Shown here: positions 16,201 to 55,673 of the stretch, in pieces
Layout of the letters: every line of letters starts with the position of its first letter
Numbering within the stretch: the stretch's first letter is position 1
Source: Saccoglossus kowalevskii
Lineage: Eukaryota > Hemichordata > Enteropneusta > Harrimaniidae
Direction of reading: 5' to 3'
DNA length: 58,291 bases
Assembly (NCBI RefSeq): GCF_000003605.2
Contig: NW_003122411.1
Location: 700,795-759,085 of the forward strand
Notes under the pieces: model-generated
Databases searched by the model: none
What the model was told of the DNA's origin: nothing
Seen by the model: only the letters and a program-made list of their open reading frames with translations
Made by a program: the position numbers and the translations under genes

Positions 16201-19200
16201 CTATTTCACTATTATTAAACATACTCATTCATTCTGCGGGTAGTTTAATTTCCATAGGTAAATTAAAACAATGACATGTGGTTGGATTTGAGACTATAAC
16301 ATACTGGGGAATAAAAAACCATCACTGACAGCAGGTCTACGAATATTATTTAAAGTCGGATGCCAATGTTGGCAAGTTATTAGAAGAGGGATAACGACAA
16401 GTGGGATAACGACATCTTTTTCTTTTTTATATTGATGAGCGATGAGAGCAATATGAACAGAATACGACAATTCCCCAAAGCTGAGGAATTTGACACGCTG
16501 CTGTGACGAAAAAAGAAATTAGTTTTATTCTCTCAAGAGATTGAGAATGGTAAAATAAAAACGAGGAATGATGCCGAGGTGCAATTCTTGTACATGATAG
16601 ACCAAAATGTACCCTACCATGATCTGCCACCACACCCACTCCCTCCCTTCTTCCACTCGACTAAAAATCAACTAAAAAGATGTCTATTTTAAAGTCAACA
16701 ACGTTCGACTGAAGCATCCAAAATGGAGAAACAGTGACGTCACTTCAAAAACATGAGCGGGTCAAGTTTGTCGCTACTTCCACTGTTGATCAAAAAACAG
16801 ATGTGTTTCCAAGCGTTGCAGTTTCAATGACATCATTAGACTGAATAAACAATGTCGAAAAAAAAAAGAGAAAAAAAAAACAAGCAGCCTCTCGGCTGAG
16901 ATAGCTCCGCTGTTAGCAATGCACATTTCAATTAAAGAACTGAAGACATCATTAGAAAATGAACAATATGAATAGTATCAAAGCAATCGGACTTACAGTT
17001 TTTAACAAGAAGTCGAAAATATCACTTTCTACCAAAAATGACAAAAATATTCACCAAAATTAGAGAATTGAAGATATCACAAAATGAACAAATCTGAGAA
17101 AGGTCTACATGTAGTATCTATATATGTAATATCAAAGCAATTGAACTATTGGTTTTTAACAAGAAGTCGAAAATATCACTTTTTACCAAAAATGACAAAA
17201 ATATTCACCAAAATTAGAGAATTAAAGATATCATTACAAAATGAACAAATCTGAGAGAGGTCCACATGTAGTACCTATATATGTAATATCAAAGCAATTG
17301 GACTTGCGGTTTTTAACAAGAAGTCGAAAATATCACTTTTTACCAAAAATGACAAAAATATTCACCAAAATTAGAGAATTAAAGATATCATTACAAAATG
17401 AACAAATCTGAGAGAGGTCCACATGTAGAACCTATATATGTAATATCAAAGCANNNNNNNNNNNNNNNNNNNNNNNNNNNNNNNNNNNNNNNNNNNNNNN
17501 NNNTATATGTAATATCAAAGCAATTGGACTTGCGGTTTTTAACAAGAAGTCGAAAATATCACTTTTTACCAAAAATGACAAAAATATTCACCAAAATTAG
17601 AGAATTGAAGATATCAACATGAAATGAACAAGCCTAAGAGAGGTCTACCCAAGGTACATATACACCAAGTATCAAAGCATTCAGGCTTGTAGTTTTCAAG
17701 AAGAAGTCGAAAAAGTTAAATATTGACATGGACGACGACGGACAAAGTCGACAGCGGAGCTAAAAAAAGAAGACGGCAAATGTTGAGACACACTTATAAA
17801 AGACAAAAAAAAAAAATGTTAACACAGTGTGTATGCGTTGAAACTGATATTGGATTGTTTCTTTTTATTGGAGAGGAAGTAAACACCGATATGAACTTGA
17901 TAAAACTGAATAGGTTTCACCACTGTCATAAAAATGCAAAAGTTAATTGATTTGTGTGACTGGGAGAGTGTCTTAATGCATGATTGTCCGCTTAGTGGAC
18001 GTTTCTCAACACAGACTCTTGGCTTTGAGAAACAAGGTAAACTAATTTGTGTCTCATAGCTTAGGTAATACAAACATCTCATGAGTGAAGTATGTGTAAG
18101 ACAGCACACTGAGCCCATGATTAGTCCCCTGAACAGATCAAAATGTTGCATTTCTCGACAACTGGTCGGCCTCTAGAGTCGGACAGGCTGCAAATGGGTG
18201 TTGTCGCCGACTCGGCCACGCTGCACACATAAACTGTGATAACTGCACACACTTCAAGATGAAGGAAAAAATAATCGCTCATGTTTTATCAAAACAGTAC
18301 ATGTCATCACCATGACGACCGGCATCAGTGTGACAAAGATGGATAGGGGACGCTGGGACCTGGCAGCCATCTTTGTTCACTTGCAATCCTCTTATTTTCA
18401 GGGCTACGCTGGATACAATCCATTAAAATACAACGCTGACCCTCCCCCCACCTAAAGTCTTGTTGCGATGAAGCACCACAAAGAGCGAAAAATTTGGTTC
18501 ACTAAATGAAACGGTCATGATGCCTAACGGTGTATCGAATTAAAAAAGTAGAGGGGGTGGGTGACAAATGTAATTAGAATGAAAGCGAGTAATGCAGTTA
18601 AGTGGGAAAACAAGCAGTTAAAGGAATCTGACCTCGTGATAATAGCACTGCCAATCAGAGCAACGGCCGCGGGACATAGTCTTGTTTTGTAAAGAGACAA
18701 AAACAAAAGGACAGGTTAAACATATTTTGTTGGTACACAAACTGTGTTAGCCTATCTGTAGAAATGAAGCATACTACCGTTGAAAGGGGCCACCCACAAC
18801 AGACTAACAATAGCGAGGTGTCAACCTCGTCTTTTCAGACCTCATGCTACAATATCCTGGGGGAGCGAATTTGAACACTGGAATGTTGGTTTTAAAAGTA
18901 AAAAAAAAATGAAAAAAAAAAGAAAGAAAAATAAGGAATTTACAATAACTCGGTTTTGTATTCAGTTAACTTAATTTCAATGACATGAAATGAAAAAAAA
19001 CATTTACTCCTGGCATTATATTTATCCGTAGCAACATTTTCAAAGCTCAATGTCGAGTCAAGTACTTGAAACAAACATACAGCTAGTGTTAGTGCTAAAT
19101 TAAAGACAAGCAGTTCTGATAAATCAGATAGCATTGGTAACTTGAATAATACCTGTCAATCACACCTCTTGCTTCGAACCCTACCCTTTTTAATTGGTTC

Positions 19201-34712: not shown

Positions 34713-36017
34713 AGTCGCAATGTCAAAAAGTGAGTCGTACGCCCATGGTCTGTGTTGTCCTGCACTAAGGCACTCTGTGAATGTGGTATTTCTAGAGGCC
34801 AGGGTTCGTCTCACTTATATCGGCCTTATCGTCTTCAGCTGGATAAAACCTGCTTCGATTTACAGTAGTGACTTTATGTATTTGATAATTTGCGTCGCCA
34901 GTGATTGAGTAGAAAAAAACTGCAAATAGCCGTTAGGTAAATCGAAATAGATCTCCATGACGTACGTTGCGTTGTCGCGTTATAGTGTTGCCGCTAATAT
35001 CCGAATATGCACTCGTACATTACAGCATATACCTTAGAAAAAGTCTATGATTAGAGGAGCCGCATTCCTGAAAGTCACGGTAAATTGCTTTCTAGTACTT
35101 TCCCAGGTCAGTGTTGTGTCAATAAATATTATCCTATTCTTATGTTTTACCCTTTGTTTATTAGTTTGTGGCGTCTAAAGACGAGAATTCAGTAAAAGGG
35201 CCGGTGTTTCTTACAATTTTTCGTCAAATTTTGCGGTATCTTTAAAAACTATCAAAAGGTAGCAATACATACAAATTTGTGGCTTGTAATGTTGAAGAAA
35301 AAAACGGCAAAAGTTTTTTTGTGAAAAGGTGACCTTGAGTTTGTTTATGTTTGGCCTTAGGCTTCAATGATGACGTCACATATTTAAACAAAAAATGCTT
35401 AATCAGTAATGTCTATCCACAGCCCCTATATCTCCCCAGTCGGGAACGCTTCACATGGAAACGCTTGACAATCAGCTGGATTAGCGGGACAGCGCTTGTA
35501 ATGGCAATCCGCGACGTGTGGTGACATGTGGGTCGGGTTATACCATGAAGGTAAAATGGATTTTTTAGCTCCATGGTCATACGGTCACAATGGTTTGGTC
35601 GAGATTTGAAAGTTTGTGGCAAGAATGAAACCAATTTTACGATTAAGTTTCAATTATTTCACATTTTGAAAGTACGCTATTCTGCGTAATGTTTCTCCCT
35701 GCTAACTATGGGCTATTTCTTTTCAATACGTTCAAACACAGCCCCTCTATCTAACTTCTGTATTTTTTTAAGTTAATATTGATATTATACTTCATAAAAT
35801 AAAGTTAAAGTCAAGAATAATTTCGTCCTTTTCATTTCGTACTTTGTCCATTACAAGTTTCTACAACGGACGCATAAATGTAGCGCACAATTTCTGCCAA
35901 ATTACGAGAGAATGGCGTAACTCGGTTATGCAAATTGTGTTTGGTGGTTAGAAAAACCCGTTTCGGAATTGGCATTTTAGATTACTAAATCGACAAATAA
36001 CTTCTGTGTGTGTTTCT

Positions 36018-36060
36018 TGATTTTGGCATAGACCTCTCTTTCTAAGGTCTATGATTTTGG
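36018..36060. mobile_element. Micro-palindrome A with 9-bp direct repeats
   Basis: TGATTTTGG at 36018-36026 and again at 36052-36060 flank a 25-bp insert beginning CATAGACCT; with the next two bases it pairs with AGGTCTATG (36045-36053). Confidence 0.75.
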
Positions 36061-36063
36061 TAC

Positions 36064-36104
36064 GGCTGATCATGGAACTATAGTTTATAGTTCCATGGGC
36101 TGAT
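36064..36104. mobile_element. Micro-palindrome B with 7-bp direct repeats
   Basis: GGCTGAT at 36064-36070 and 36098-36104 flank a 27-bp perfect palindrome with arms CATGGAACTATA and TATAGTTCCATG and a 3-base loop. Only three bases separate it from A. Confidence 0.8.
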
Positions 36105-36110
36105 GAAACC

Positions 36111-36122
36111 TACGCATGCGCA
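36111..36122 (+). promoter_or_regulatory. NRF1-like TACGCATGCGCA
   Basis: About 280 bp upstream of the SLC25A21 copy A start. NRF1 commonly drives genes for mitochondrial proteins. A related CGCGCATGCG lies at 45644, between the two carrier copies. Confidence 0.4.
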
Positions 36123-36402
36123 CTGATACTGGAGTCTGTATGCACGCTTATGTTGGGTCACGTCACATATGGTATAACTTCCGAAATACTTATCGTCGAA
36201 AGGTGTCAAAAGTTGATTTACCCGCTGCGAGCGTCGGTACAGCAGATTGCATTTCGTCTCCAGATTGGGGATAGAGGAATTGTGGTCTTTCTGTAACGGT
36301 AACCAAGTTATGAGGTTATCCCTTGATCTCATGGTCACGTTACCCTATTTATACAATTTGCGGCATGTATTTATAGAAGCTAAGATTTTGGATTGAACAA
36401 CG

Positions 36403-36460
36403 ATGACAGCGAACAAGGCTAGAGAGGCTGCTCAACAGATGACTGCAGGAGCACTTACCG
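36403..36460 (+). CDS. SLC25A21: SLC25A21 copy A exon 1
   Basis: Start ATG in CGATGACAGC; residues 1-19 MTANKAREAAQQMTAGALT and the first base of Gly20, then GTAAGC. Short hydrophilic N terminus and start of transmembrane helix 1. 8 of 20 residues differ from copy B, the most divergent exon relative to its length. Confidence 0.9.
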
Positions 36461-39400
36461 GTAAGCACGACTCAATGCATGCCACTTTTCGGACGGTCAC
36501 ATTTTTTGGACCGGCACTTTAATGGCCAATAAAACCGCTTCTTACGACGAGATATATCGGAATATCACGGGCGACCGCGGCAATCATAGACCTCCTTTCA
36601 GGGGGTCTATGTCGCAATCAACTGAATATCAGCCTTTTTCCGAATGTGTTATACTGCTGCCGTTTACGAGACTTTGAATTGCTATATGCACTCGCAGAGT
36701 TAAGAACAAAATGCTAAACAGTCGACCATTCTTTCTTACTTAGCGAAAATAATTTACAGGAAGCCGGTTAAGGGGCCGACCATTCGATATATGAGGGGGT
36801 CAGTTGGGCACATGACATTTAAAAAATGCCGTGCCTTGGTGTTTGTTTTTTTTTGGAGTGATAGTCACATTTCTTTTTTATCTTACATCTTCTTACATTT
36901 TTATGTTTTGTTTATCACAACTAATTATTGTAACTAGTCCATAATTATGTTACTCTCGGTGTATATACGCATCTATTGATATAAAACATGTTATTAAGGC
37001 GCATTTGATATACTGGTATTTACAGTGTCCACTCCTTGATGGGAGATCACGTGTGGCCAACGATAAACTATCGATGCCCCACGATATGTTGACCTATAAA
37101 CGTATGTCATTTTGCATAACAATGTCCGTACTTTGTTGACCCGTCGAGCTGGTATTGTATGCATTACTTGCTGTACAATGAAGTGAAAACAAACAGGCTC
37201 GGCTCTAGTAATTATCTGTTCAGTTTTTTAGCTCCGCTGTCGACTTTGTCGAGCGGAGCTTATCATATGAGTGATTGTCCGTCGTCGTCCGTCGTCCGTG
37301 TCAATGTTTTACTTTTTCGACTTCTTCTTGAAAACTACAAGCCTGAATGCTTTGATACTTGGTGTATATGTACCTTGACCTTGGGTAGACCATGGAGCTA
37401 AAATCTTATTTTAGCTCCATGGGTAGACCTCTCTCAGATTAGTTCATTTCATAATGATATCTTCAATTCTCTAATTTTGGTGAATTTTTTTGTAATTTTT
37501 GGTAAAAAGTGATATTTTCCACATCTTGTTGAAAACTGCAAGTCTGATTGTTTTGATACTATACATATTGTTTATTTTTTAATGATACTTTCTGTTCTTT
37601 AATTGAAATGTGCATTGCTAACAGCGGAGCTATCTCAGCCGAGAGGCTGCTTGTTTTACTTAGTACCTCCATAGTACTGCGAACTATAGCATGTTTCACG
37701 TCAAAAGTGTGACAGATCTCAACTTGTTTTTCCTCGGAGTTTACTTCTGTTTTCACGTAGCAGACCTCGGCGAAGACGTAGTTTGTACATTGGAACACGG
37801 TTACTAGAAGAATTTTGTGCCATAAATCGTCTTCGATTTCGTGAATAGCGGGGAGATTTAGTAAAAACGAATAGTTCAATTTGATTTGACATATGGGTCG
37901 TTTTGAACTGTTATACGCAAAATCGGCGACAGTGGCGAAATTTTCTTTTTCGGATTATTGTCCACAAATAGTCTCAACTTTTTTTTCACTTGTATTGCCG
38001 TTCTTTCTTTTTCAGTATCCCCTAGCCGGTCCACATACGGATCAATTATTTTATTTTCTTGGCAGTCAAATTGACTTCTTTCACATTCACAGCCATTCTT
38101 ACAGACGGACCGGAACATGAAGTCAGTGGAAAACAAAAGTTTTTCTCGTTAGCGTGGGGGAAATTTGGTTAGCGTGGGGGAAAACAGTGGTGTTAATCGG
38201 AAAATTCATTGTCTTTTCCTGTATGTGACCATGGAGGTAGACCATGATGTGACATAGCTCCGACTGTGAGAATCGTTGCGAAAAGGCTCACGAACCTGAT
38301 TTGCATAGTTGGTCAACCATGGTGGCGATTACGTAATCGCTTGTTCGCTTACCCGTGACCTGGCCTACTTAACTTGGGGATTAAAATTAGGTTCTGCCGC
38401 TGGCACCCTTTCTATTTTCATAAATATATGAACCGCGTTTTGTGCGAAAAAAAAGTTCAGTGACCATATATTTCTATCTGGGTGTTGTGAAAAACATCAT
38501 AAAACAAATCTATTTGCCGAACTACACCATTACGATGTGGAATCCAACACAGCCTACCCAATTCTGTAATTGTATTTTCCAAAACATAGTTTCGTGGTAC
38601 AATGTAGTAGAAATAAGAATTTACCATGTCCAAAATCCGTCAGCGAAACCCAAACAACTATAAATATGTATATACTAGTATTAAAATATGAGTTAACAGG
38701 AAATTTGTATAAATCAATAAAACATATGTACAGTAATGTTACAATCAATTCAGGAGCAAAACAGACTATCTGGCGATTACGTATAAACGATCTGTCTGAC
38801 AGTGATATCTTTGATCCCAGACATGTGACACCCCAACTCTGCAGGAAACTCCGGGCAGCTGTCTTCTCTATACAGATGATACTGTTCTAATATCTGAAAC
38901 AAAAATGGCTTTCAATTCTGTTTAGATCATCTGGCAGCATATACACGACATTGGAAACTTAAAGTTAATATTCAGAAAACAAAAGTCATGATCTTCAATA
39001 AATGCAACTGGCTTTTAAACGATATTCCTTTTGAAGGCAGCGAAATAAACCTGACGAAACATTTAATTATCTCGGAGTCACACTGAGCATGGAGCTCGAA
39101 TACTCCATGCTCTGAGCTATAATGGAAAATTCAAAGAAGCACTAGTCAATCTAAAAAGAAAAAGATAAAAGGGCCTTATTTTCACTGAAAGTAAAACTAG
39201 GATATGAAACAATATATAACTACATTACTTTACCTGTTTGATAAATTAATCCGACCAATCCTAGTAACGGTAGCGATGTCTGGGGCATGAATGCTCGCAC
39301 AAGTCTGCCATTGAAGGGAATCATAGCAGCTACCTCAGATATTTTCTCGGTGGTACTAAAATATACAAAAATACACAAATAATGGGTATTTATGGAGGAT

Positions 39401-42400: not shown

Positions 42401-45193
42401 TGTGGGGAGTCTGTCTATTAACTGAGTAATGTGTTATCGATAAAACATAAAGTGTTCTAGTGTACCTAGCCTATTTATGAGCTAGTAACTGTTACATGCA
42501 CCATACAGTTCAGGAAATTTGGGTTACTCGTTTGAGACTTTTTCGCACCCGACATTCATTCAACCAGTTTGTAAATTTCAGTCTAATAAAGGGAAAGTGG
42601 AGTAAAGGGGTAAAGCTTTATGGCGTCGCCGATTTAATACATCGCGGAAGAAGATGTGAATTCAATATCAACCCTTGAGTGCCAGATATTTTCCCCGCCA
42701 ACAATTTTTGTGCAAATATGTTCACATTTTGTAAAATTGTCATTAAATTTCATCATCATTTTGGACCATACAGACAGTTGCAAATTTTGCTTTTAGTTTT
42801 TGATCACAATGAGTGCAATTTGAAATGACGCCAGTTGAAAACTGTTATTCGGTCGGACAATTCTAACATCTAGTTTCAGTTTTAATTTTAAAACTAACAA
42901 ACATTTATAAAGATTGAGGGAATGGGTTTGTTGTATCGGGAATACTCCTTTATAAAAAAAAAAATAATTTCCTTTATTTGCAGACGTTTATTACGGCAGG
43001 TCTTGGATCAGGTCTAACAGAAGCGTTTATTATCAACCCACTCGAAGTTGTCAAGGTCAAGTTACAAGCTGAAAGGGCAACTATTTTAGCAGAAGTAAAG
43101 TATGATTTATTTATTTATAAAGTGAAATTGTTTGTAATTAAAATTAGTATAAAAATTATAAAATTCTAGGTATGGTTATTATGCCTTTTGTATTCACATA
43201 CTACCACGACGATTGACCAATTTGATCAGGGTAAGCAATTTGTGGCAATACATGCTAGTTTGCCGATGAGAATTATAATTGTACGTTAATACACGAATAA
43301 CAAACCCAAAATATGAAAAATGCAGTGTATAATTATAGTCTTGCATGTCTTCATACAGCAACAATCGGCCTTTACCGTCGCTCGTATCATTGCCAGAGAA
43401 CACAGTCTTGGACTTAAAGGCTTGAATAAAGGTTTGACTGCAACGTTGGGAAGACACGGCGCATTCAACTGTGTGTATTTCAGTTTCTATCACAGTGTGA
43501 AAGGATGGATCCCCGCTGCGGAGGTGAGGATACTGAATTCATAGTACTATTCAAACTTTAATGTATCTGTCATTTGTTCAAAGCGACTAATGACTACACC
43601 ATCTGTGATGATATTGATTCTGAGTGCCATTTCCGTCAGCTCCAAATAGTGTTTCAAGAAATTCAGATTTTTTTTTTAGCTCGAATTGAGCTCGAGATTT
43701 TTAACACCAACGACACTATTTCAGAACCTAATTTGTTTTCATGAAAACTGACTTGGTTTCTTATATTAATGATTGTAGTTTTAAAAACAAACAAACAAAC
43801 AAACAAACAAAAAAATTGAAATTGATCATATAATAATACTCATTACACCATTCAGTAAAGACAACAGTGAAATTTAGTGTCCATGATTCTGCTCGGCGTT
43901 TGGAACGTGAATAGCGTGGCAAGAACACCAGAACGTACACTAAGTTTGCATGTTATAGTATAATGTCATGAGTATATCAGTAATAACACAGTTGTACTTT
44001 CAATGGCCGAAGCCTGGAAATACTACTGCTGGCCTCCGAATCCAGAGTGACCAATTCAGACACACATGGCATTTTCTACATTAAAAAAAAAAATCTGCTT
44101 AATCGAAAATGAATTGAACATTAGATTTATATTCACTGTGATATCCCCCGGGGTTTCATTTTATCTTTTTCAACGTAGAATTCTAAACTAGAGTTTTGTC
44201 GGAGGTTTGCGATAGGACTCGTCTCAGGAACGTTAGCCACTATGATTAACATACCGTTTGATGTAGCGAAAAGCAGAATACAGGGACCACAGCCTGTGCC
44301 TGGTGAAGTCAAATACCGAGCATGTTTTAAAACCATGGCAACCATCTACAGGGAAGAAGGGTATGTATATGATCGATGATGTCGTCTATTGAGTTTTAAA
44401 ATAATGCGGTCTACCCGACAACTACGACAGAATTGTAGAGTAGAAATACGAGTGAATCGTTTGTTGTTATCTGGCGTACCTAAAAGCTTAGACTACACCC
44501 CAACTATCCATGATGATACGTTGTTATGCAAACCGGGGCGTGATGACGAGAAGTATTTAATACTAGTATTTACCAGCACGTTTTTATTTATATACATTCT
44601 GACCAATAACGACGTGGAATGCTAAAACTGGAAGCTGTTCTGCAACTATGGCAACAGTCAAGGTTTGACTGTGGTAACATAAACGCTCAATGATTTTTCA
44701 GGCATGCAATCAACAACAAAAAAATCAAATGCAATACATGCTTTAAAAAATAGGCAAAGATGAGCTACAGTAATTGACCTGATGCGTTTTTAATCATAAT
44801 TTTATACTAGTATGTCTAGCAACGTATTTGATGCCGTGTAATGTCTCATAAAGTGTGTGAGTTGATTGCGTGATGTAATTGAAATTTTAATTACACGTAA
44901 CCCCAGTTGCAAAGCCTTATCTTTATCCGCCCTTGACCCCGTTTCAATTTATTGTTTTCCTCACTGGCATCTAATGGTCACATGGTTGCCATGGTGCCTT
45001 TTAGGCCCCTCTGACTATGCAATGACACAATTCAATATATCTTTTGGCAGTGATTATATTTATGTTATTTTTTTTCAGATTTTTTGCGCTGTACAAAGGA
45101 TTTATACCGAAAGTGATGCGCCTAGGACCGGGTGGTGCCATCGCGATGCTGGTGTTTGAGTATTCATATGAATGGCTGAAAAAAAATACATGA
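36403..45193 (+). CDS. SLC25A21: SLC25A21 copy A, mitochondrial 2-oxodicarboxylate carrier
   Basis: Inner-mitochondrial-membrane antiporter that exchanges 2-oxoadipate and related C5-C7 2-oxodicarboxylates, linking lysine, hydroxylysine and tryptophan breakdown to the matrix. Eight exons: 36403-36460, 40497-40545, 41866-41949, 42263-42392, 42984-43094, 43359-43523, 44179-44360, 45079-45193; 894 nt, 297 residues (human about 299). Three carrier signatures are intact: P29-L-D-L-I-K34, P126-L-E-V-V-K131, P225-F-D-V-A-K230. Six transmembrane helices are expected. Relative to copy B and to the vertebrate protein it carries more substitutions, e.g. ETSKRAVRFF for ETPKRAVKFF, NPLEVV for NPFEVV and GAIAML for GAVMLL. 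No frameshift or stop. First intron is 4036 bp and full of repeats. Tandem with copy B, 2.0 kb apart. Confidence 0.95.
36580..36620. mobile_element. Micro-palindrome C with 7-bp direct repeats
   Basis: GCAATCA at 36580-36586 and 36614-36620 flank an insert whose arms CATAGACC (36585-36592) and GGTCTATG (36604-36611) pair. In the first intron of SLC25A21 copy A. Confidence 0.65.
37224..37656 (+). mobile_element. Family 3 element, plus-strand copy
   Basis: Begins TTTTTTAGCTCCGCTGTCGA with a terminal hairpin (AGCTCCGCT...GCGGAGCT) and ends ACAGCGGAGCTATCTCAGCC then the GCCGAGAGGCTGC hairpin. Same layout as 54983-55673 but with fewer internal units, and with micro-palindrome D inserted. Confidence 0.75.
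37383..37429. mobile_element. Micro-palindrome D inside a family 3 element
   Basis: Arms CATGGAGCTAAAAT and ATTTTAGCTCCATG with a CTT loop, flanked by GGGTAGACC (37383-37391 and 37421-37429). The sister element at 55129 reads straight through (GGGTAGACCTCTCTCAG), showing the insertion and its target duplication. Confidence 0.85.
38223..38253. mobile_element. Micro-palindrome E with 7-bp direct repeats
   Basis: ATGTGAC at 38223-38229 and 38247-38253 flank CATGGAGGTAGACCATG (17 bp; 5-bp arms CATGG/CCATG). Confidence 0.65.
38760..39300 (+). pseudogene. Non-LTR retrotransposon reverse-transcriptase relic
   Basis: Broken frames read INDLSD, then LYTDDTVLIS (the Y-x-D-D box region, Ala replaced by Thr), then WKLKVNIQKTKVMIFNK, YLGVTLS and, after frameshifts, LFDKLIRPIL and SDVWG. 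This series is characteristic of the palm/thumb of non-LTR (LINE-type) reverse transcriptases. Multiple stops and frameshifts; the ends of the element are not visible. Lies in SLC25A21 copy A intron 1. Confidence 0.8.
39083..39117. mobile_element. Micro-palindrome F inside the reverse-transcriptase relic
   Basis: CTGAGC at 39083-39088 and 39112-39117 flank a 23-bp insert; with the preceding GC the arms are GCATGGAG and CTCCATGC. It splits the conserved YLGVTLS / YNGKF text of the relic. Confidence 0.8.
39558..39739. mobile_element. 166-bp hAT-like MITE with perfect 8-bp target duplication
   Basis: Element 39566-39731; 15-bp perfect terminal inverted repeats CAGTGGCAGATCCAG / CTGGATCTGCCACTG. 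CGCAGCAC flanks it on both sides (39558-39565 and 39732-39739). The 8-bp duplication and CAG...CTG ends fit the hAT superfamily. G-rich inside; no coding capacity. Confidence 0.9.
39990..40164. mobile_element. Imperfect foldback segment
   Basis: CAATTCAAAGCAGGAGGGTC then GTCTCCTTCGCA near 39990-40021 is inverted at about 40130-40164 (TGCGTAGGAGACGATTCCCC then CGCTTTAAAAATTG). Overlapping ORFs on both strands arise from this symmetry. No target duplication seen. Confidence 0.5.
40497..40545 (+). CDS. SLC25A21: SLC25A21 copy A exon 2
   Basis: 49 nt between TTTTTTAG and GTAAGG, phase 1 to 2. Encodes IVEVSLMQPLDLIKT, the end of helix 1 with the first carrier signature (P-x-D-x-x-K). Copy B and human have His where this has Gln before the Pro. 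Confidence 0.95.
41866..41949 (+). CDS. SLC25A21: SLC25A21 copy A exon 3
   Basis: 84 nt, acceptor CGTACAG, donor GTAAGT. Matrix loop 1: RFQIQGSTNDPTAYKSLADC and FRTIYRLEG, typical of the 2-oxodicarboxylate carrier (human RFQIQR..DPNSYKSLVDSFR). Confidence 0.95.
42263..42392 (+). CDS. SLC25A21: SLC25A21 copy A exon 4
   Basis: 130 nt, acceptor TATTTCAG, donor GTACGT. ITSFYKGILPAILAETSKRA then VRFFTFEQYK: short matrix helix and transmembrane helix 2 with the cytoplasmic-gate motif F-E-x-x-K. The family Pro in ETPKRA is Ser here, and the following Lys is Arg. Confidence 0.95.
42984..43094 (+). CDS. SLC25A21: SLC25A21 copy A exon 5
   Basis: 111 nt, phase 0 both ends; acceptor TTTGCAG, donor GTAAAG. 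GLGSGLTEAFIINPLEVVKV: transmembrane helix 3 with the second signature (P126, E128, K131). Confidence 0.95.
43359..43523 (+). CDS. SLC25A21: SLC25A21 copy A exon 6
   Basis: 165 nt, phase 0 both ends; acceptor ATACAG, donor GTGAGG. Matrix loop 2 and helix 4: LGLKGLNKGLTATLGRHGAF then NCVYFSFYHSVKGWIP. GLNKGLTATLGRHG is identical to human. Confidence 0.95.
43665..43702. repeat. Possible further micro-palindrome (H)
   Basis: AGATTTTT at 43665-43672 and 43695-43702 flank a segment with AGCTC/GAGCT arms (43678-43692). The T-rich direct repeat is weak evidence because it can arise by slippage. Confidence 0.35.
44179..44360 (+). CDS. SLC25A21: SLC25A21 copy A exon 7
   Basis: 182 nt, acceptor CAACGTAG, donor GTATGT. 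Helix 5 with the third signature (IPFDVAKSR) and matrix loop 3 (IQGPQPVPGEVKYRACFKTM). QGPQPVPGE is invariant between both copies and human. Begins NSKLEFCRRF where copy B has DPKLEFCRKF. Confidence 0.95.
45079..45193 (+). CDS. SLC25A21: SLC25A21 copy A exon 8 and stop
   Basis: 115 nt after TTTTTTCAG, ending ...AATACATGA. FFALYKGFIPKVMRLGPGGA then IAMLVFEYSYEWLKKNT: matrix helix and helix 6. Poly(A) signal candidates AATAAA occur in the downstream repeats near 45470 and at 45572. Confidence 0.95.
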
Positions 45194-50200: not shown

Positions 50201-52322
50201 TAACTCGGTCCTGCATCTGAGAATGCAGTCACTGGTCAGGGGTATACAGAAGCATGTCATTGTTATAGCTCAGTCATTGTTAACCTGTGATACACTGCAC
50301 ACATTTAGCCGAATAGTGCCCCCCTCAAAAATGGTTTGATGTAACAATAAGTAATAATTACATAACAATCTTGGGATGTTCAAACCATGTAGTATGCAAC
50401 TTAGCTGATGATTAATGTTGTTGTTTTGGTGGTCCAAACACTATCATGGTTTCAGTAAATTTAACAAAAACCTGAAAACAATTGTGTCTTGCCCTTGTAC
50501 CAAATTGAAACCAAATTGGTAAAAGTTTATTCCAATAGTGGATAGGATACGTGAGAAAAAGTTGAGTGGCCTTCAATTGACCATTTTGAATCAAAACAAA
50601 ATGACGTGAGTGTTGTCAATATCAAGTTTGAAAAAAAAAATGTGCCTAGGATTGCCTAAAGATTGGTTGGCAACATTAACATATCTTTTAGTGTGTTTTT
50701 TGATCAAACAAAAAGCAATTTTACGGGTTTATATAGAATATTCTGTCTTATCTTTGTAAAAACTGAAGAAAATAATCGGTGCATGCCTGAGAAATGACGA
50801 TTGATGAACAGAACCCAAAAAAAATAGGTACCAGTTTTGAATTACATTGGATGGAGGCTTAAAAGGTGAGGTAGAGGAACATTGAAATGTTTTATTAAAT
50901 TGTTTCCTATTGTTTATCTACCTCAGCAACCGTCAGCCTTTGCCACAGCTCGAATCATTGTTAGAGAGAACGGTTTTGGATTGAAAGGTTTAAATAAAGG
51001 TTTAACTGCAACATTGGGAAGACATGGTGTATTCAACTGTGTGTATTTCAGTTTCTACCACAATGTGAAAGGATGGATCCCCGCTGCAGAGGTAAGAATA
51101 ATGAATTTATGGTCTTTCTTTCTTTCTTCCTCATTTTGCTGAGGCAGACCAATGAGAACAGGAGAAAATAACATTTAAAATGGTTATCAAACTAGCTGAC
51201 GACCTGAATTGAGGTGCACAATGTTATGTACCGGTACTATTCAAGCAACATTTCGGCTCAATTTGTTCAAACGATTTTGAGGAGAAGTCACTCAAAGGAT
51301 CTGATTATGATGCATTGTGGTTAATTTTTTTTTAGAATGTAGCTGGGCTAAAAATATGCATATATGTTTTATCAAGAATCTATCGAGAAGTGTGTTCTGG
51401 CACTTTACTAGCTTATGAAAGTGACTCCATTCTGTATGCCTCAATCAAACCAATATATAACCAATAGCATCACAGAACACAGTGGATGCTGGCATATCAC
51501 ACCGCTTGCATACCTCTATCTTTTGTGTTTTTATTTACTCAGGATCCTAAACTAGAATTTTGTCGGAAGTTCGCGATCGGCCTCGTCTCAGGTACATTAT
51601 CTTCTGTCATGAATATACCGTTTGATGTAGCGAAAAGTCGAATACAGGGACCACAGCCTGTCCCTGGAGAAATTAAATACCGAACATGTTTTAAAACCAT
51701 GGCAACTGTGTACAGGGAAGAAGGGTATGTATGATCAAAGATGGTATTGGTATCTTTTTAATAAAGGCATACATAAATTCATTATGATTTTTTTTCAGCA
51801 ACCAAACCAAAACAAAACAACCATTTAGCAAGTATCAGTGTTTTGTTCAGACAATAATCTTTGTTGAGGTTCACATTTGATTCATTTCACACACTCGTGG
51901 GATATCATGGTTATTTCATTTGCATTATGACATCGCAAATGTGACAAATTAGAATGATTCCTGATCTACGATTTTATAGTAAACAGTGTAATTTATTTAA
52001 ATGCTGTTACTTTGCTACATCTTCATGAATCAAATAATCAAAACATGAGGACTGTGTCATCTATTCCAACTTTGTAGAGAAGCAAATTCAATTTTTTTGG
52101 AATAGTAAGTACCGTATGTATGTACATTGTATATTGAATGAACTGGTTCATATTTCTGCATTCCAAGAGATTTTGTAAAAGTGATCATGTTTCTGTATTT
52201 TTTTCAGGTTCTTCGCTCTATACAAAGGACTTTTACCGAAAGTAATGCGTCTAGGACCTGGTGGTGCTATTATGCTGCTGGTGTTTGAATATTCATATGA
52301 ATGGCTGAAAAAAAATACATGA
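47223..52322 (+). CDS. SLC25A21: SLC25A21 copy B, mitochondrial 2-oxodicarboxylate carrier
   Basis: Second, complete copy of the carrier with exactly the same exon sizes and phases: 47223-47280, 48092-48140, 48601-48684, 49526-49655, 49932-50042, 50927-51091, 51543-51724, 52208-52322; 297 residues. All three carrier signatures are intact (HPLDLIK, NPFEVVK, IPFDVAK). It keeps the vertebrate-like residues where copy A departs (ETPKRAVKFF, NPFEVV, DPKLEF, MLLV), so it is probably the more constrained copy. By manual comparison 48 of 297 residues differ from copy A. Introns are compact (276-884 bp). Same substrate class expected; divided expression or substrate preference between the copies is possible but not visible here. 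Confidence 0.96.
48092..48140 (+). CDS. SLC25A21: SLC25A21 copy B exon 2
   Basis: Acceptor TTTGATAG, donor GTAAGG. IVEVSLMHPLDLIKT, first carrier signature, with the vertebrate-like MHPLD. Confidence 0.95.
48601..48684 (+). CDS. SLC25A21: SLC25A21 copy B exon 3
   Basis: Acceptor CGTACAG, donor GTAAGT. RFQIQGGANDPTAYKSLADC then FRTIYRSEG. About 60 bp of upstream intron (from about 48560, TTTCCAACACTTGTTTCTGA) is also similar to copy A near 41827. Confidence 0.95.
48899..49025. mobile_element. Small TIR element, family 4
   Basis: GTATTTGCTCTATT at 48899 and its reverse complement AATAGAGCAAATAC at 49012-49025. A relative with the same ends lies at about 53520-53660. Confidence 0.6.
49030..49246. 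mobile_element. Foldback MITE, family 1 (copy f)
   Basis: Left end TACTGTAGAATACTTTATTT; internal CAGCGAATATACTGTTGTTC and CTCGTCAAAAATCAAGGAAA as in copies a, d and e. Starts four bases after the family 4 element. Confidence 0.65.
49526..49655 (+). CDS. SLC25A21: SLC25A21 copy B exon 4
   Basis: Acceptor TTTTCAG, donor GTACGT. IASFYKGILPPIMAETPKRA then VKFFTFEQYKKIFLFG; matches human at ETPKRAVKFFTFEQYKK. Confidence 0.95.
49932..50042 (+). CDS. SLC25A21: SLC25A21 copy B exon 5
   Basis: Acceptor TTTTTGCAG, donor GTAAAG. GLGSGLTEAFVINPFEVVKV; helix 3 with the second carrier signature. Confidence 0.95.
50927..51091 (+). CDS. SLC25A21: SLC25A21 copy B exon 6
   Basis: Acceptor ACCTCAG, donor GTAAGA. 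FGLKGLNKGLTATLGRHGVF then NCVYFSFYHNVKGWIP; Val and Asn as in human (GRHGVFN, FYYNVK) where copy A has Ala and Ser. Confidence 0.95.
51543..51724 (+). CDS. SLC25A21: SLC25A21 copy B exon 7
   Basis: Acceptor TTACTCAG, donor GTATGT. DPKLEFCRKFAIGLVSGTLS, IPFDVAKSR, then IQGPQPVPGEIKYRTCFKTM; helix 5, third signature and matrix loop 3. Confidence 0.95.
52208..52322 (+). CDS. SLC25A21: SLC25A21 copy B exon 8 and stop
   Basis: Acceptor TTTTTTTCAG. FFALYKGLLPKVMRLGPGGA then IMLLVFEYSYEWLKKNT and TGA. No AATAAA is seen in the first 700 bases after the stop; the downstream block homologous to copy A's 3' flank is displaced to about 54490. Confidence 0.95.
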
Positions 52323-54982: not shown

Positions 54983-55673
54983 TTTTAGCTCTGTTGTCGA
55001 CTTTGTCGAGCGGAGCTTATCATATGAGTGATTGTCCGTCGTCGTCCGTGTCAATGTTTTACTTTTTCGACTTCTTCTTGAAAACTACAAGCCTGAATGC
55101 GTTGATACTTGGTGTATATACTTTGGGTAGACCTCTCTCAGATTTGTTCATTTCATGATCATATCTTCAATTCTTTAATTTTGGTGAATATTTTTGTCAT
55201 TTTTGGTAAAAAGTGACATTTTCGACTTCTTGTTAAAAACCGCAAGTCCAATTGCTTTCATATTACATATATAGGTACTACATGTGGACCTCTCTCAGAT
55301 TTGTTCATTTTGTAATGATATCTTTAATTCTCTAATTTTTGTGAATGTTTTTGTCATTTTTGGTAAAAAGTGATATTTTCGACTTCTTGTTAAAAACCGC
55401 AAGTCCGATTGCTTTTATATTATATATCACAGTCCCTCTATATATAGGTACTACATGTGGACCTCTTTCAGATTTGTTAATTTCGTGGTGATATCTTCAA
55501 TTATCTAATTTTGATGATTATTTTTGTCATTTTTGGTGAAAAGTGATATTTTTGAATTCTTGTTAAAAACAGCAAGTCTACATATTGTTCATTTTCTAAT
55601 GATATCTTCTGTTCTTTAATTGAAATGTGCACTGGTAACAGCGGAGCTATCTCAGCCGACAGGCTGCTTGTTA
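54983..55673 (+). mobile_element. Family 3 element, plus-strand copy with three internal units
   Basis: Same start (AGCTCTGTTGTCGACTTTGT, GAGCGGAGCTTATCATATGA) and end (ACAGCGGAGCTATCTCAGCC, hairpin) as 37224-37656, with extra copies of the internal tandem unit (AAAAAGTGATATTTTCGACT, AAAACCGCAAGTCC). Confidence 0.8.

Follow-up and report, generated by a model that had tools for sequence, protein, structure and literature searches.

Short palindromes between 7-bp duplications in Saccoglossus kowalevskii as probable excision footprints of P-superfamily DNA transposons

P-superfamily DNA transposons carry a CANRG motif at their ends (a term that was not found in our literature search), and excision of the Drosophila P element leaves both target duplications plus parts of the inverted repeats behind. 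Here we describe short palindromes in a 58,291-nucleotide stretch of the genome of the hemichordate Saccoglossus kowalevskii, in the following called the window (NCBI RefSeq assembly GCF_000003605.2, contig NW_003122411.1, positions 700,795 to 759,085 of the forward strand), which is part of an assembly of 572,110,611 bases. Inside 4.1 kb, the window holds eight palindromic inserts of 17-32 bp and of varying quality between 7-bp duplications. With a probability of about 0.92, these palindromes are excision footprints of P-superfamily DNA transposons. The principle as such is known; this case is set apart as a variant by an offset of ~18 nt, by duplications of 7 bp, and by how many families and how large a record it comprises.

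The P element of Drosophila melanogaster is a cut-and-paste transposon with the second strand being cut 17 bp inside the 31-bp inverted repeat, which leaves 17-nt 3' extensions on the transposon, and its insertion favours promoters (PMC7776569). The 17-nt stagger is also found in PMC10983969 and PMC11368186. The elements described here are very probably likewise of the cut-and-paste type with a second cut well inside the inverted repeat, but their duplication is 7 bp instead of 8 bp and their offset reads as ~18 instead of 17; moreover, they comprise four tip families in one genome and are known as fossils rather than from an excision assay. The 7 bp lie within the 7-8 bp of the P superfamily, and the inverted repeats begin with CA (CATAG/CATGG) as in this superfamily. 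Galileo, a P-superfamily element of Drosophila, also generates 7-bp duplications, whose palindromic consensus GTAGTAC agrees with ours in the GT...AC frame and differs in the centre, whereas its inverted repeats of ~575 bp, up to 1.2 kb, contrast with the 26-30 nt found here (PMC2775673). The P-type element Pdre2/THAP9 of zebrafish, the inverted repeat of which starts CATACCTG, differs by an 8-bp duplication and a 13-bp inverted repeat, compared with 7 bp and 26-30 nt here (PMC10983969). The P elements of Anopheles gambiae have inverted repeats of 27-31 bp and 8-bp duplications, and their non-autonomous relatives with P-like ends, the P-MITEs (miniature inverted-repeat transposable elements), resemble the 0.5-0.9-kb elements described below; the word footprint is absent from the main text of that paper (PMC1562414). 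No genome-wide survey of P footprints was recognised in the literature by title or start of the abstract, subscription journals being mostly outside the scope of this search.

To define the length of the duplications, the ends of the inserts were set at CAT and ATG. Footprint A (36020..36060) then has a 27-bp insert (36027-36053) with ATTTTGG on both sides (7/7), and on the minus strand its arms equal the end CATAGACCTTAGAAAGAGAGG exactly for 21 nt and 9 nt; since the arms share 3 bases, they can be split anywhere from 18+9 to 21+6. Footprint B (36064..36104; insert 36071-36097, 27 bp) lies between two copies of GGCTGAT (7/7) and agrees with the end CATGGAACTATAAACCCC over 12 nt and 15 nt, and footprint D (37384..37428; insert 37391-37421, 31 bp) lies between two copies of GGTAGAC (7/7) and agrees with the end CATGGAGCTAAAATAAGA over 14 nt and 18 nt. 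Footprint E (38223..38253; insert 38230-38246, 17 bp) has ATGTGAC on both sides (7/7), its arms of 7 and 5 nt being too short or mutated for family assignment, and footprint F (39081..39116; insert 39088-39109, 22 bp) is flanked by CACTGAG/CTCTGAG (6/7). Footprint C (36578..36618; insert 36585-36611, 27 bp) has only 5/7 in CGGCAAT/TCGCAAT, and its minus strand can be read by eye as 18+9, like A. Two further inserts are older candidates: the one at 35019..35056 (insert 35026-35049, 24 bp) has an A-like centre between ATTACAG/ATTAGAG (6/7), and in the one at 35537..35582 (insert 35544-35575, 32 bp), which lies between GTTATAC/GTCATAC (6/7), 13 nt of the right arm equal the D-family end. An earlier note on this DNA had named A to F as six palindromes within 3.1 kb, and every one of them is present in the sequence, with exact coordinates for B and E and ends that were 1-2 bases off for A, C, D, and F. 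The 6-9-bp target duplications of the same note did not stand, as they are 7 bp once CAT/ATG are taken as ends, with the scores given above; the other lengths arose because duplication and insert ends share bases.

The number of such sites in the window is higher than in shuffled sequence. When palindromes within perfect 6-9-bp duplications were sought independently of any motif, 4 window sites were obtained, namely A, B, D, and a TATATATA site of low complexity, versus an average of 0.35 over 20 shuffles. The CAT...ATG rule, which demands a duplication of 6/7 or better and no fewer than 5 of the first 8 pairs, gave 9 sites (A, B, D, E, F, 27938, 35026, 35544, and 38585) versus a mean of 1.12 per shuffled window in 100 block-wise dinucleotide shuffles, and therefore about one weaker window site may be due to chance. 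The site at 38585-38628, 44 bp of the form CATAG...CCATG with TCCAAAA perfectly repeated on either side, is a poor palindrome and may be a longer decayed scar or due to chance. For two of the footprints the empty site can be inferred. Four aligned sister stretches of footprint D in the window lack the insert and contain a single copy of the duplicated stretch, reading GGGTAGACC in two of them and variants thereof in the other two. For footprint F, the host text without the insert and one duplication reads NYLGVTLSYNGKFKEALVNLK in a single frame, and by eye this host reads like a reverse-transcriptase remnant. The inferred empty sites at D and F thus contain one copy only, which speaks against direct repeats that predate the palindromes at these two sites.

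In the whole genome, the pattern CATRGA-N5-20-TCYATG has 3134 matches versus 660 for the reversed control, which confirms a genome-wide excess. According to our estimate from the places examined, about half of the 3134 are footprints, and the count overstates the footprint number because unrelated interspersed repeats add matches. For inserts of 33-38 bp, the raw count of 1918 versus 383 for the control is swollen by unrelated interspersed repeats as well, and many of these matches among those listed are CATAGATTATACATG... copies. As the repeats inflate these counts, the limit of arm length discussed below is based on the arms of the families and not on raw counts. An interspersed repeat with CATAGATTATACATGTTAGGATACATGTCCATG also inflates the counts of the pattern and seems to have nothing to do with the footprints. 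The duplication was scored at 49 pattern places among the matches listed (a 50th being the second start of one of them), and 24 of these 49 have a 7-bp duplication at 6-7/7. In detail, 17 of 48 scored places have 7/7 and 7 have 6/7, and the 49th (L044), which lies at a contig end, has 3/7. At other lengths, full-score duplications were found at none of the places for 5, 6, and 9 bp and at one place for 8 bp (L015, with a one-base shift). The symmetric logo of 44 distinct duplications is G0.49 T0.73 T0.50 W A0.50 A0.73 C0.49, and the duplications share a palindromic GTNNNAC target preference. Clustering was analysed for 25 duplication-supported places, L015 included, which form 11 pairs within 50 kb versus a random mean of 3.9 (p 0.0008), 5 pairs within 15 kb versus 1.6 (p 0.009), and, less clearly, 2 pairs within 5 kb versus 0.6 (p 0.10); for the remaining 23 places, 4 pairs within 50 kb were found versus 2.0 (p 0.11). 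One clustered pair, located on C38, resembles a segmental duplication. By the pattern combined with a duplication of at least 6/7, the window has four sites (A, B, D, and F) in 3.1 kb versus 0.0085 expected from an even spread of half of the 3134 matches.

Four tip families were followed: G (CATGGAAGGTACTAAC), A (CATAGACCTTAGAAA), D (CATGGAGCTAAAAT), and B (CATGGAACTATAAACC), the last three being named after the window sites A, D, and B. Their arm patterns were counted 154+161 times for G (reversed control 3+2), 126+115 for A (1+0), 32+27 for D (1+1), and 130+117 for B (0+0). Among 77 distinct sites examined in all four families, 47 are footprints with a 6-7/7 duplication. The first 30 loci of the 315 G matches comprise 22 distinct sites with 15 footprints, 2 full elements, and 5 others, and the first 30 loci of the 241 A matches comprise 24 distinct sites with 9 footprints, 5 full elements, and 10 others. 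For D, 19 sites were taken of 59 matches (13 footprints, 6 others), and for B, 12 arm sites besides the ends of four elements were taken of 247 matches (10 footprints, 2 others); the footprint share in D and B is biased upward because the sites were partly picked for two arms listed close together. The two other B sites are a one-arm scar missed by the rule (L151) and an arm that continues into an element (L155).

The full elements of the G family are 927 and 915 bp long and those of the A family 660, 1406 (L107), 530, 662, and 655 bp, all with 7/7 duplications, which are not independent evidence because the rule for full elements demanded them. A further A element (L114) of 3370 bp with a 7/7 duplication contains tandem repeats and an N gap, and by eye its frames show no TNP-like RNase H transposase domain. 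The full elements of the B family include those of 740 and 544 bp, and three of the four examined have a perfect duplication. In the A, B, and G elements that were read, the inverted repeats agree over ~26-30 nt and have CATAG/CATGG as their outer ends; the B repeat is CATGGAACTATAAACCCCAGGAAGAACAAC at both ends. Altogether, the elements that share tips and the 7-bp type of duplication are 0.5-3.4 kb long. The earlier note had proposed a search for longer elements with matching tips, and these exist, with 7-bp duplications in the families A, B, and G. Among the first-listed sites, scars exceed full elements within 1.5 kb by 15 to 2 in G and by 9 to 5 in A.

The length of the arms points to excision. 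In the 47 footprints of the four families, the longer arm is exact over 14-19 nt and never over 20 nt or more; in matches of 19 nt, the base in excess of 18 may belong to the other arm or agree by chance. As the arms are capped near one offset, an offset-cutting transposase is to be assumed rather than random deletion. If the palindromes were instead remnants of longer elements that were internally deleted by abortive gap repair, with no excision, their tips would match longer elements with 7-bp duplications just as they do, but any arm length would be predicted, whereas none of the 47 footprints exceeds 19 nt exact despite repeats of 26-30 nt, and blunt 18+18 joins recur. The cap refutes internal deletion as the main source and makes it a very improbable origin. 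The earlier proposal of terminal remnants of larger elements was correct insofar as the palindromes are transposon tips with longer relatives, and it fails with regard to random internal deletion, given the stop of the exact arm at 19 nt.

The forms of the scars vary within each family, with insert lengths of 17-59 bp in G, 15-36 bp in D, 23-38 bp in A, and 22-36 bp in B. Two B scars of 36 bp (L146, L147) are 18+18 without any loss and are the longest joins without extra bases, two of 34 bp (L148, L149) consist of two 17-nt arms, and one of 22 bp (L153) joins 18 with 4. The G scars are mostly 32 bp long, which is explained by 17-nt arms overlapping at CG, and others fit 18+13 and 18+10; 27-bp A scars at four sites are 18+9. 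One-arm scars lie between intact duplications at L060 and L151, the G scars include one that consists of a single 17-nt arm with GAATTAC on either side, and the 59-bp G scar L080 holds repeated pieces. These forms also bear on the idea that the 17-36 bp themselves are ultra-short foldback elements, which a transposase for which the tips suffice would move as they stand. Identical 32-bp (G) and 27-bp (A) sequences at several sites with differing duplications would agree with such elements, but the unit is not constant in G and D, the one-arm copies L060 and L151 could not move, the arms stop close to the P-type offset, with 19 nt as the limit of exact match, and full elements with the same tips exist as a source of the scars. 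The foldback element suggested in the earlier note is therefore rejected and has very little probability left. Palindromes and short direct repeats can also arise by template switching. If a break had been repaired by a switch of template or by copying of a hairpin, with no transposon involved, the repeated pieces in L080 could be accounted for, but the shared tips, the exact 7-bp spacing, the palindromic target preference, and the full elements would all be unexpected; as the main source this origin, which had also been considered before, is refuted by the matching full elements and is extremely improbable. Footprints of the hAT type were not considered further, since the duplications of hAT elements measure 8 bp and their hairpins are formed on the flanks.

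For excision by a P-type transposase, the following course can be proposed. Insertion of the element duplicated 7 bp of the target, as the duplications show. During excision, one strand would be cut at the element boundary and the other ~18 nt inside the inverted repeat. Each of the two chromosome ends would then carry a single strand that reads 5'-CATRGA..., identical on both sides, because the second cut sits inside the inverted repeat and both donor strands read alike. The overhanging strand and the strand geometry would be those of Drosophila P. The gap would be sealed by end joining, and complete fill-in would give 18+18, pairing over a few shared bases the frequent 32-bp G scar with its CG overlap, one-sided trimming 18+9 and 18+4, and sealing with repeated pieces the 59-bp scar. 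The repair pathway would probably comprise fill-in and end joining as well as microhomology pairing, and the scar would be palindromic because the two ends of the element are inverted repeats.

A probable link to a P-type transposase is provided by the D family. The P-type RNase H domain PF21787 is matched 13 times in the genome. At the C4066 locus (L134), a stretch edged by a D-family end, which is flanked by CTATAAT and points toward the transposase, contains frames with PF21787 (3.5e-19) and PF21789 (4.4e-6) at 2.7-6.3 kb from this end; by arithmetic from 59 D tips and 13 transposase matches, ~0.01 D tips are expected by chance within 5 kb. The GTP-binding insertion domain PF21788 was matched at two other loci and not in the L134 pieces scanned. 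The N-terminal piece (L134 5536-6369, minus strand) resembles a zinc domain, with weak matches to zf-AD (0.0032) and RAG1_imp_bd (RAG1 importin-binding, 0.014), both below cut-off, and a THAP domain was not found in the scanned L134 pieces, the N-terminal one of which ends at an N run, so that an earlier domain may be hidden. Membership in the P superfamily is well supported but not closed, because the other end of the C4066 element lies in an N run. That the footprints were left by a non-P superfamily, likewise with a long stagger and 7-bp duplications, would be compatible with a transposase tie for the D family only, at one locus, and with no THAP domain in the pieces scanned there, but the long stagger, the CAT tips, the 7-bp GT...AC duplications, and the neighbouring P-type transposase all agree with the P superfamily, and we regard a non-P origin as unlikely. 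A PHD-finger frame at L134 339-653 (plus strand; PF00628, 1.7e-6) faces the transposase tail to tail, and another one at C1630 (L048 5206-5772, plus strand; PF00628, 2.2e-4, under cut-off) lies on the same strand as the transposase there; these two frames near P-type transposases are 44% identical over 63 amino acids. It is conceivable, albeit doubtful, that the elements go back to an autonomous P-type element of two genes and with an 18-nt stagger, in which a transposase whose N-terminus is a RAG1-like (Chapa-type) zinc region faces a PHD-finger gene. Such an arrangement would bring to mind the RAG1-like and RAG2-like genes that are paired in RAG-like transposons.

Several observations weigh against P-type excision as the origin of the palindromes or limit its reach. 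In the window, C, E, and the sites at 35026 and 35544 are degraded. Genome-wide, 25 of the 49 pattern places examined lack a 6-7/7 duplication, and 23 of the 77 distinct family sites are neither footprint nor full element by rule. One B element has the unlike flanks ATTAGCC/AGCAAAG, and a 527-bp A-tip pair on C167, counted among the 10 others of A, is also flanked unlike. The arm limit counts exact matches, so that mutation can hide a longer arm, and a strict 18 has two exceptions, namely scar L096, with a 20-nt arm match with one mismatch, and window site A, the 21-nt match of which shares 3 bases with the other arm. The cut offset of about 18 nt is read from repair products rather than from cleaved DNA. 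The transposase link comprises one family (D) at one locus, where the right end of the C4066 element is hidden in the N run and the stretch beyond is again all N. No CATRGA ends with matching duplication were found in 15.8 kb at the C1630 transposase, which has around it only a weak CATACAG/CATAAAC pair with TTTTTAT, or in 9 kb at the C2039 transposase.

Scars of this kind let a genome sequence alone reveal, for several families and without an assay, the stagger of the enzyme, its target preference, and the various ways in which the breaks were repaired. Since scars outnumber full elements in G and A, elements that have departed can be mapped. For annotation, they are a warning, as such palindromes resemble tiny mobile elements but are not.

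The cluster in the window lies at a probable gene start. A frame from 36403 reads MTANKAREAAQQMTAGALT, followed by the splice-donor-like GGTAAG, and is probably the first coding exon (36403..36460, plus strand) of a mitochondrial-carrier gene, the later exon pieces of which lie at 42.9-51.7 kb, where four pieces match Mito_carr (mitochondrial carrier family); the gene is putatively SLC25A21-like. The footprints span from ~1.4 kb before to 2.7 kb after the start at 36403, which suggests repeated strikes on the promoter region and, for the one locus examined, would fit the promoter preference known for P elements. The carrier exon pieces 43317-43541 and 50870-51139 of the window are similar, which hints at a partial duplication of the gene there. 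Furthermore, a dispersed repeat family occurs at 16956-17737, 37241-37578, and 54998-55579 of the window, partly as tandem units of 157 and 173 bp, and footprint D sits inside its copy at 37241-37578.

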